A stretch of DNA of 64,000 nt. It comes from Candidatus Nanopelagicales bacterium. Lineage in GTDB: Bacteria > Actinomycetota > Actinomycetes > Nanopelagicales > Nanopelagicaceae. Numbering within the stretch: position 1 is the stretch's first letter; each line of letters starts with the position of its first letter. The notes beneath the pieces are model-generated. The model worked only from the letters and a program-made list of their open reading frames with translations. It had not been told where the DNA came from and searched no databases. The stretch spans positions 1 to 64,000 of the forward strand of contig JAURGA010000004.1 of NCBI GenBank assembly GCA_030834095.1, read 5' to 3'. This document shows, piece after piece, positions 32,871 to 37,782 of the stretch. The position numbers were made by a program, and so were the translations under genes.

Positions 32871-35375
32871 ATGTTCGAGCGCTTTACCGATCGAGCCCGA
32901 CGCGTTGTCGTGCTGGCTCAAGAAGAGGCACGTATGCTCAACCATAATTACATCGGTACTGAACACATACTTCTGGGGTTAATCCATGAAGGTGAAGGTG
33001 TTGCTGCCAAAGCACTCGAAGCACTTGGGATTTCGCTTGAAGCCGTTCGCTCGCAGGTTGAAGAAATAATTGGGCAAGGACAGCAAGCGCCATCTGGACA
33101 TATTCCATTTACACCACGTGCGAAGAAAGTTCTAGAGCTCTCACTCCGTGAAGCGTTGCAACTTGGCCATAATTACATTGGCACCGAACATATTCTTCTT
33201 GGCTTAATTCGCGAAGGCGAAGGCGTAGCCGCACAAGTATTGGTAAAGCTTGGCGCAGATCTAAACCGAGTTCGCACCCAAGTTATTTCACTTCTTTCAG
33301 GTTATCAGGGTAAAGAAGCTGCAACTTCCGGTGCACCTGCAGAAGGAACACCATCTACATCTTTAGTTCTTGATCAATTCGGCCGCAACCTTACACAGGC
33401 AGCACGTGAAGGAAAGCTTGACCCAGTAATTGGTCGCGATAAAGAGATCGAACGCGTCATGCAAGTTCTTTCACGTCGCACCAAGAACAATCCAGTGTTA
33501 ATTGGCGAACCAGGCGTAGGTAAGACTGCAATTGTTGAAGGATTAGCACAATCAATCATTAAAGGCGATGTTCCTGAAACTCTGAAGGATAAGCAGGTTT
33601 ATTCACTTGACCTTGGTGCGCTAGTTGCTGGCAGCCGCTATCGTGGAGATTTTGAAGAGCGCTTAAAGAAAGTTCTAAAAGAGATTCGTACGCGTGGCGA
33701 CATCGTTCTTTTCATCGACGAGATTCATACTTTAGTTGGCGCAGGCGCAGCTGAAGGCGCAATTGATGCTGCAAGCATCCTAAAACCAATGCTTGCCCGT
33801 GGTGAATTGCAGACAGTCGGTGCAACAACTCTTGATGAATATCGTAAGCATTTCGAGAAGGATGCAGCGCTAGAACGTCGCTTCCAACCTATTCAAGTTG
33901 CTGAACCAACTGTTGAACACACAATTGAAATTCTTAAAGGACTTCGTGATCGCTACGAATCCCATCACAAAGTTTCAATCACAGATGGCGCACTAGTTGG
34001 CGCTGCACAGATGGCAGATCGTTATATTTCAGATCGCTTCCTGCCAGACAAGGCAATTGATTTAATTGATGAAGCTGGTTCTAGATTACGTATTCGTCGC
34101 ATGACTGCGCCACCAGAGCTTCGCGCATTTGATGACAAGATTGCTGAAGCCCGCAAAGCTAAAGAATCTGCAATCGATTCTCAAGACTTCGAAGGCGCTG
34201 CTAGCTTCCGCGATAAGGAGAAGTCCCTAATCGCTGAGAAGAATGAGGCTGAGAAGATATGGAAAGCTGGAGATCTAGATGTAGTTTTCGAAGTTACCGA
34301 AGAGCTAATCGCTGAAGTGCTTTCAAATGCAACTGGTATTCCAGTATTCAAATTGACCGAAGCTGAAACTGCACGCCTGCTTCGCATGGAGGAAGAATTA
34401 CATCGCCGCGTGATTGGCCAGGAGCAAGCAATCAAGGCGCTATCACAAGCGATTCGCCGGACCCGAGCTGGATTGAAAGATCCAAAGCGTCCTGGTGGTT
34501 CATTTATCTTCGCTGGACCTTCTGGAGTTGGAAAGACTGAACTATCTAGAACACTTGCACAATTCTTATTCGGTGACTCAGATGCACTTATCCAGTTGGA
34601 TATGTCGGAATATTCTGAGAAGCACACAGCTTCAAGGCTATTTGGTGCACCTCCGGGTTATGTCGGATATGACGAAGGTGGCCAATTAACCGAAAAGGTT
34701 CGCCGCAAACCATTCTCAGTAGTTCTATTTGATGAGATTGAAAAGGCTCACCCAGATATCTTTAACTCACTTCTACAGGTGCTTGAAGATGGCCGTTTAA
34801 CAGATTCCCAGGGCCGAGTTGTCGATTTCAAGAACACAATAATTATTATGACTACAAACCTTGGAACTCGCGATATTTCAAAGACCTTGAACCTAGGTTT
34901 CACTAACGCATCAGATGAACAAGGAAATTACGAGCGCATGAAGGGCAAGGTAAATGATGAACTTAAGAATCATTTCCGCCCAGAATTCCTTAACCGCATC
35001 GATGATGTAATTGTCTTCCACCAGTTGACCGAGAACGAGATTGTTCAAATTGTTGATCTAATGATTGCTAGTTTGGATGAGCGACTTCGCGCTCGCGATA
35101 TGGGAATTGAATTAACAACCGAAGCTAAGGCGCTTCTTGCAAAGAAGGGTTACGACCCACTTCTAGGAGCCCGCCCACTTCGCCGTTGTATTCAACGGGA
35201 AATCGAAGATGTTCTATCAGAGAAGATTCTCTTTGGTGATTTAAAGGCGGCAGAGATAATCTTGGTTGGAACAACAGTTGAAGATGAGAAAGAAATTTTC
35301 ACCTTCAAGGGAATGCCTAAGACTGAGATGCCAGATACCCCTGGTCACTTAGCTGAAGCACCAACACCTCAGTAA
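32871..35375 (+). CDS. clpC: ATP-dependent Clp protease ATP-binding subunit ClpC
   Basis: An 834-residue Hsp100 unfoldase that feeds proteins to ClpP. Two N-terminal Clp repeats (each with [13 protein letters not shown]) span about 1-145. The first AAA domain has Walker A GEPGVGKT (212-219) and Walker [19 protein letters not shown]-type coiled segment ([18 protein letters not shown]) lies near 445-465. The second AAA domain has GPSGVGKT (549-556). It is preceded by AGGCGG about 6 bases before the ATG and a 158-base control region with two inverted repeats, so unlike most genes here it has a long leader. Heat- or stress-linked control is likely by family, for example ClgR in other actinobacteria. 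Confidence 0.96.
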
Positions 35376-36771: not shown

Positions 36772-36946
36772 TATGCACTCACCCACACGCTTAAAATCAC
36801 CCAAAAAACCCAAAAAACTGTGAATTAGCCGTGTATTTCTAGTCGTACACCTTTACCCTTTTACTACGCACGACTTGTGCTCTTCATATGGGATCACAAT
36901 TTATGCGGCTGAAGTCTCGACCGAGGCCCAGAACCAAAACGCCCAC

Positions 36947-36951
36947 GGAGG
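36947..36951 (+). promoter_or_regulatory. Strong Shine-Dalgarno GGAGG of actinorhodopsin
   Basis: GGAGG lies 6 bases before ATG 36958. This is the clearest ribosome binding site among the divergent genes in the window. The 198-base gap upstream, the longest in the window, holds no certain promoter that I can assign. Confidence 0.7.
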
Positions 36952-36957
36952 CTATAA

Positions 36958-37725
36958 ATGGTAAATCTAACAGACGGCCAATGGAGCACGCTTTACAACG
37001 TGTTCTCCTTTGGCTTGATTTCGATGCTTGCTTGCACCGTTTACACATTGGTGTCACAAGCTCGTGTTCTACCTAAGTACCGCAATGCACTTGTTCTATC
37101 TTCAATGGTTACATTCATCGCTGCGTACCACTACTGGCGCATATTTAACTCATTCAACGAGTCATCAGTTGATGGTGGAGTAACAATTGGAAATGCAAAA
37201 GGTGCATTCAATGAGGGATACCGTTATGTTGACTGGATCCTGACAGTACCTCTTCTACTTGTAGAAGTTATTGCTGTTCTTGCACTAGCTAAGGCTGCAG
37301 CAAAGTCACTTATTTCTCGCCTAGTTCCTGCATCAGCAGCGATGATTGCACTTGGTTACCCAGGTGAAATCGCAACTGATACAAACTCCAAAGTAATTTG
37401 GGGCGTTCTATCAACAATTCCATTCATTTACATCCTTTACGTATTATTCGTAGAGCTAGGTAAGTCACTTGATCGCCAACCAGAAGGTGTAGCCGCAACC
37501 GTTGGTCGCCTACGTCTTCTATTGATCGCGACATGGGGCGTTTACCCAATTGCGTACCTACTACCAATTCTTACTGACACTGGTGCAACAGATCCAGGTG
37601 CATTCGTTAACCGACAAATTGGTTACACGATCGCCGACGTTCTTGCCAAGTGCGTATTCGGATTAACAATCTACAAGATTGCTCGTCTGAAGTCAGCAGC
37701 AGAAGGTATGAAGGAAGATCACTAA
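36958..37725 (+). CDS. Actinorhodopsin, light-driven proton pump
   Basis: A 255-residue seven-helix retinal protein of the xanthorhodopsin-like/actinorhodopsin group. Helix C carries the pump motif D92 (proton acceptor), T96 and E103 (cytoplasmic donor), in YRYVDWILTVPLLLVE. The retinal Schiff-base lysine is K231 in ADVLAKCVFG. His58 matches the His that partners the acceptor Asp in proteorhodopsin. The position equivalent to proteorhodopsin 105 is Leu100, which predicts green absorption. G149 in helix E (VIWGVLST) may be the fenestration glycine that lets a carotenoid antenna contact retinal (inference). It uses highly biased codons (about 14 TAC to 1 TAT for Tyr), a strong GGAGG site and a terminator, all signs of high expression. 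Genes for making its chromophore from lycopene lie just downstream. Confidence 0.96.
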   Translation: MVNLTDGQWSTLYNVFSFGLISMLACTVYTLVSQARVLPKYRNALVLSSMVTFIAAYHYWRIFNSFNESSVDGGVTIGNAKGAFNEGYRYVDWILTVPLLLVEVIAVLALAKAAAKSLISRLVPASAAMIALGYPGEIATDTNSKVIWGVLSTIPFIYILYVLFVELGKSLDRQPEGVAATVGRLRLLLIATWGVYPIAYLLPILTDTGATDPGAFVNRQIGYTIADVLAKCVFGLTIYKIARLKSAAEGMKEDH

Positions 37726-37750
37726 TCTGATCTAAAGAATCAAGAAATTT

Positions 37751-37782
37751 GGGGGCGCCAGAGATGGTGCCCCCATTTTTTT
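37751..37782 (+). terminator. Rho-independent terminator after actinorhodopsin
   Basis: GGGGGCGCC (37751-37759) pairs with GGTGCCCCC (37766-37774, one G-U pair) around a 6-base loop, followed by a run of seven T (37776-37782). It is the only strong intrinsic terminator noticed in the window. Confidence 0.9.

Follow-up and report, generated by a model that had tools for sequence, protein, structure and literature searches.

The actR locus and its expression signals

The window, i.e. the whole stretch of 64,000 nucleotides that was analysed, belongs to a 1.36 Mb genome of a Candidatus Nanopelagicales bacterium and contains an actinorhodopsin gene, actR, for a presumed light-driven pump. A gap of 198 bases lies between this gene and the divergent upstream radA, both genes sharing the gap, and two genes with lycopene cyclase domains as well as blh are located downstream. 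What the initial annotation of this DNA chiefly missed is that the gap contains a structured and conserved 5' RNA leader, whose two hairpins occupy window positions 36867-36931. The following features were assigned:

36854..36859, + strand: possible -10 element TACCCT, inferred from a CATATG-anchored alignment with the TAAAAT of three relatives (L007, L009 and L010)
36863..36954, + strand: whole leader element, matched by covariance model R1 (74.2 bits, E 5.2e-18 in its own genome)
36867..36907, + strand: hairpin 1 (H1), with a basal stem, internal loops, a middle stem and a CATATG apical loop (minimum free energy fold, covariation in alignments A2 and A6, model R2)
36885..36890, + strand: palindromic loop hexamer CATATG, present within 105 bases of the Shine-Dalgarno site in 33 of 70 dereplicated leaders
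36909..36931, + strand: hairpin 2 (H2) (minimum free energy fold; covariation in Nanopelagicus-type and CTCGAG-type leaders, i.e. outside the genus of the window)
36947..36951, + strand: Shine-Dalgarno site GGAGG, with the ATG 6 bases on, inside a CACGGAGGCT box shared by many relatives (of 110 homologous loci, near-duplicates included, 100 have exactly GGAGG)
36958..37725, + strand: actR, actinorhodopsin of 255 amino acids (Pfam Bac_rhodopsin PF01036, 138.1 bits for a cut-off of 24.6)
37750..37782, + strand: intrinsic terminator found by hairpin search, an 11-pair stem (8 G-C; 37750-37775) followed by TTTTTTT

The gap upstream of actR had been described as the longest of the region. Its length of 198 bases was confirmed, and the larger gaps of 922 and 494 bases in the greedy gene list stem from missed or doubtful ORFs; for 36 of the 63 window genes the upstream gap is at most 20 bases. 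The further claim that actR alone has a strong GGAGG, in a region of leaderless genes, was not confirmed. The NlpC/P60 gene at 19427 likewise has an exact GGAGG ahead of its start, which makes two such genes among the 63 of the window, and pairing with the anti-Shine-Dalgarno sequence is stronger than that of actR (-9.5 kcal/mol) at 32871 (clpC, -11.3), 26597 (-10.3) and 54158 (-9.6). Such pairing is at least as strong as -6 kcal/mol for 21 of the 63 genes, so that leaderless genes are not the general rule in the region. In four relatives (L021, L023, L024 and L034), actR has AGAGAGAGAG before its start and lacks GGAGG, which looks like a lineage-specific initiation signal.

At the other end of the gene, the strong hairpin with its run of seven T was recovered as announced. 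When at least 7 pairs, at least 5 G-C pairs and at least 6 T in 8 were demanded, it was the sole hit of its strength on both strands of about 122 kb (the window, 40 kb of contig C23 and 18 kb of contig C48), and it does single out actR among the neighbouring genes. Of 65 dereplicated loci, the window being one, 60 have a hairpin with a T-rich tail 3' of actR, while the control offsets gave 0/62, 0/61, 1/57 and 1/42. Five of the 70 loci had been left out of this count, four because the frame fell on a stop codon (L068, L069, L072 and L077) and one at a contig end (L066). By the same pair and T criterion, textbook intrinsic terminators are almost absent from the roughly 122 kb sampled.

The codon usage of actR was compared with that of 29 ORFs of the ribosomal cluster, including EF-G and EF-Tu, selected visually, with operon order and translations as guide. 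With this reference the codon adaptation index (CAI) of actR is 0.693, rank 1 of the 63 window genes, its codons thus resembling those of ribosomal proteins; the reference genes themselves gave 0.52-0.77 when left out one at a time, and two ORFs taken for the ATP synthase alpha and beta subunits gave 0.69 and 0.68. The reported codon shift is real, with 13 TAC to 1 TAT (14 to 1 had been counted) and 8 TTC to 2 TTT; the contrast in Phe codons with the neighbouring genes is mild, blh having 11 TTC to 10 TTT. The very high expression that had been proposed agrees with this codon usage and with published acI metatranscriptomes: in the passages of PMC5574706 on the same gene in acI / Nanopelagicales, actinorhodopsin is a top 10 expressed gene in all three acI clades, at more than 84 times the median. 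High actR expression in acI is therefore already published and not new. What appears to be new is the two-hairpin 5' leader in the gap upstream of actR.

A two-hairpin leader in the radA-actR gap

In most homologous loci, two hairpins were seen ahead of the CACGGAGGCT box. For folding, the 110 loci were reduced to the 100 with GGAGG (the 10 others being excluded) and then to 70 by a filter on similarity, length and N. The mean folding z of these leaders was -2.97, with 48 of 70 below -2; three offsets lying further upstream gave -0.13, and 150 random 80-mers of the window gave -0.11. The initial control in the coding region had given a mean z of -1.6 (44 of 140 below -2), and more controls were then added; the actR coding region also beats its shuffles at four of five offsets (z -0.95 to -1.52), which counts against the reading of the leader given below. 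Around window positions 37097-37427 and in the relatives, three coding offsets gave mean z values of -1.42, -1.42 and -1.52 (35 loci, dinucleotide shuffles), a folding excess that random window segments, unlike the actR coding sequence, do not show. The z of the window's own leader is modest (-1.67 and -1.61, sixth among 28 upstream regions of the genome), so that the case for the leader rests on comparison. The strongest folded of these 28 regions (z -4.3) lies upstream of an atpE-like gene (L119:11747-11950; contig C48 of the window genome G000, about 73746), identified by eye from the N-terminus of ATP synthase subunit c, and is perhaps another translation enhancer.

Besides the 33 leaders with CATATG, 20 of the 70 dereplicated leaders carry CTCGAGG in its place; they belong to a sister lineage with an analogous leader. 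Some lineages (L073, L103, L105 and L107) had no clear two-hairpin leader. An Rfam search of the window leader at E values up to 10 gave seven weak matches, none within the leader, and in six relatives searched at gathering scores tRNAs alone were found, with no described leader family.

Covariation was followed in four alignments. A2 holds 30 of the 33 CATATG leaders (L044, L069 and L092 were omitted for longer spacing); A6, from which L030 was also omitted, holds 29 leaders in 44 gap-free columns, with rows chosen for the CATATG loop; A4 holds 12 distinct Nanopelagicus-type leaders; and A5 has 15 rows, i.e. 13 of the 20 CTCGAGG leaders (omitted: L054, L055, L059, L067, L068, L072 and L077) together with L040 and L027. 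On A6, 124 cells of H1 carry two-sided changes versus 52.1 in shuffles, and the covariation score is 0.631 versus 0.275, neither value being reached in 500 shuffles; versions of the structure slid along the alignment scored 0.11-0.21. The middle stem of H1 is paired in 85.6% of cells on A2, compared with 33-48% for slid versions. Taking H1 and H2 together, 92.9% of cells are paired on A4, with 11 pairs showing two-sided change (2/500 shuffles as high), and 85.2% on A5, with 13 such pairs (9/500).

Two of the five covariation measures do not clearly exceed shuffles on A6 or on A2. The number of pairs with two-sided change was 7 versus 6.3 in shuffles on A2 (216/500 as high) and 14 versus 13.0 on A6 (154/500); the number of further pair types was not above shuffles on A2 (270/500), A4 (53/500) or A5 (164/500) and exceeded them weakly on A6 (28/500). 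RNAalifold applied to A2 recovered seven pairs, all in the middle stem of H1, the gaps introduced by MAFFT being read as inconsistent beyond it.

The mismatch pattern informs on the strand. G-U cells outnumber A-C cells by 73:20 on A6, 63:10 on A4 and 74:12 on A5; the cells are not independent, and the direction is the same three times. As G-U lies far above A-C, H1 probably works as an RNA transcribed in the direction of actR rather than as a DNA palindrome. Compensatory base changes exceed the controls, at 0/500 for the cell-based measures, as expected if the leader is a structured RNA acting in cis, and comparison of the relatives shows an element of the actR strand that, judged from sequence, functions as RNA.

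Occurrence of the leader and position of the transcript start

Within the family, an actR homolog is present in 99 of 121 genomes and absent from 22. Model R1 gave 53 matches in 52 of the 121 genomes (E up to 0.1), and 51 of the 53 are placed by their coordinates immediately upstream of actR, counting actR fragments at contig edges. No match was obtained in the 22 genomes without actR, and 51 of the 99 actR genomes were matched by a model that was built from CATATG leaders and detects the CTCGAG type weakly. The two off-target matches (G075:C9, E 0.0022; G100:C33, E 0.065) were taken as chance. In the window's own genome the next R1 match scores 12.8 bits (E 1.03), so that no convincing other leader-bearing gene was found there. 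Comparison of the searched genomes thus shows that the predicted leader occurs with actR, with two doubtful exceptions at most elsewhere. Model R2, restricted to H1, matches positions 36866-36909 with 44.8 bits, the runner-up in the genome having 17.3 bits (E 2.6); in 16 of 27 genus genomes it gave one match per genome, of which 9 could be placed against known actR coordinates and 7 could not.

On a tree of 74 actR proteins (out of 78 rows, the rest being omitted since the frame began on a stop codon), the loop type changes 11 times; CATATG spans many deep branches on one side of the tree and CTCGAG the other. A same-genus genome contains a second, distant rhodopsin with 31% identity (G060:C75:3240-3998). 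Several records of close relatives (L002, L003, L046, L053 and others) are titled 'Bifidobacterium breve' MAGs and look like mislabelled lake actinobacteria.

A promoter pair TTG[AC]NN / NANNNT was recognised in 28 of the 70 leaders, compared with 11% in shuffles, at a spacing of 17 in 27 of the 28 (ties favoured 17); the window (locus L001) is among the 42 leaders in which the pattern was not recognised, and no convincing -35 element was seen in its genome. Among the 28 leaders whose promoter could be recognised, 25 have 7-9 bases between the -10 element and the first pair of H1, a distance that places H1 at the predicted 5' end of the transcript. The separate control of actR that had been proposed is in line with the conserved leader, with the promoter-like sequence upstream of it in these 28 of 70 relatives and with the conserved terminator.

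Possible roles of the leader

One known build of long-lived bacterial mRNAs combines a hairpin at the 5' terminus with a second hairpin, a strong Shine-Dalgarno site and a hairpin at the 3' end. The 5' UTR stabiliser of Escherichia coli ompA, like the papA and Bacillus aprE leaders, starts with one or more 5'-terminal hairpins followed by a strong Shine-Dalgarno site, and the ompA product is likewise an abundant membrane protein; part of this is general background on these leaders. Such stabilisers appear in the reference titles of PMC3997798 and in the ompA passages of PMC7509114, the latter stating that ompA transcripts without a start codon remained stable given a strong Shine-Dalgarno site. 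The actR mRNA would carry hairpins at both ends, the strong ribosome site that an ompA-type stabiliser requires lies downstream of the two leader hairpins, and the gene has ribosomal-protein-like codons and a published top 10 rank; on these grounds the leader was read as a stabiliser.

Our best explanation, held with slightly more belief than doubt and built on analogy with ompA, is that hairpins, Shine-Dalgarno site and terminator together would give a long-lived, heavily translated opsin mRNA. The actR gene would form a single-gene transcription unit whose mRNA opens with H1 and H2, H1 lying probably at, or a few bases from, the predicted 5' end. The hairpins would be followed by a short spacer and the strong Shine-Dalgarno box, and the mRNA would close with the conserved terminator hairpin. 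The 5' hairpins may block decay that depends on the 5' end (of the RNase E/J or RppH type) and may keep the ribosome site usable, and the large supply of opsin that the cell needs would follow. The stabilisation, the start site and the benefit of the leader are all inferred. The mean unpaired probability of GGAGG in the 70 folded leaders is only 0.36, too low a value to show an open site. A mini-hairpin masking the Shine-Dalgarno site (xCC...GGAGGx') was also considered and rejected (mean of 2.87 pairs versus 2.84 in shuffles, 369/1000 as high). No sequence relation with ompA is claimed, the stabiliser role of the actR leader is a prediction, and unlike ompA the actR leader has a conserved loop hexamer. 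Generic mRNA stabilisers need no conserved loop sequence, which was counted against the stabiliser reading; a palindromic loop that is kept this well hints at a further contact, with a putative partner.

A regulatory element in which a protein, a small RNA or a ligand reads the CAUAUG/CUCGAG loop and tunes actR, for instance to light or retinal supply, is possible but rather unlikely. The loop hexamer stays fixed while the stems turn over (in rows chosen for that hexamer) and is kept even between deeply separated branches of the actR tree; in passages of PMC8591293, the actR mRNA level of Rhodoluna lacicola varies across the light-dark cycle, but Rhodoluna is another lineage. As H1 occurs singly in each of the 16 matching genomes of the genus, the partner would have to be a dedicated one, and the test for a Shine-Dalgarno mini-hairpin switch was negative. 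It is quite improbable that the palindromic loops let two actR mRNAs pair by loop-loop kissing into dimers or clusters. Six-base palindromes do occur in several loops (CATATG, CTCGAG, CAATTG, TACGTA and, by eye, GATATC), in 14 of 30 distinct H1 loop strings versus 5 of 41 for H2, and the lineage with the non-palindromic H1 loop GCCCCACG carries CGCGCG in H2. However, this pattern was spotted post hoc, most of the 14 are CATATG or CTCGAG, one (GAATTC, L067) derives from a misassigned hairpin, and in several lineages the loop is no palindrome (GCCCCACG, CATATCC, CAAATCC, CACTGCC and others). Finally, the inverted repeat could be a DNA operator for a transcription factor and not an RNA structure. 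A palindromic hexamer near the predicted start site would suit it, but the arms covary with little sequence conservation and G-U cells are about four to six times as frequent as A-C cells, which a double-stranded DNA site would not yield; this reading is disfavoured and highly improbable. In the lineage with the H1 loop GCCCCACG (L019, L035, L043 and L108), the palindromic H2 loop TCGCGCGA is identical in 4 of 4 loci.

Returning to the predicted ompA-like stabiliser, if this explanation is true, the leader would explain how cells of very small size and slow growth keep up one of the top acI transcripts. It is also a defined RNA element, open to testing and to reuse for driving expression in freshwater Actinobacteria. 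Should the loop be recognised by something, it would offer a way into how these bacteria, which are hard to culture, regulate their capture of light energy. That the leader represents a new class of cis RNA, its palindromic loop serving mRNA self-pairing or a dedicated factor so that opsin output is coupled to light or retinal supply, we regard as unlikely; such a class would concern very abundant freshwater bacteria. Among the matches listed, open-access titles and abstracts on such genes do not describe the leader.

Of the 29 homologs from outside the family, 28 were analysed (G162 was omitted at a contig edge); z fell below -2 for 4 of the 28 upstream regions, and three of these 4 belong to family f39. 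These three f39 leaders (L122, L129 and L130; z -2.4, -2.55 and -3.1) present two hairpins and AAGGAG or AGGAG before a related actR; a fourth f39 locus (L121) has z 0.19. Their sequences differ from that of the window's leader, and the likeness may be one of analogy. In L130 the first hairpin is tipped with CTCGAG, a possible case of convergence.
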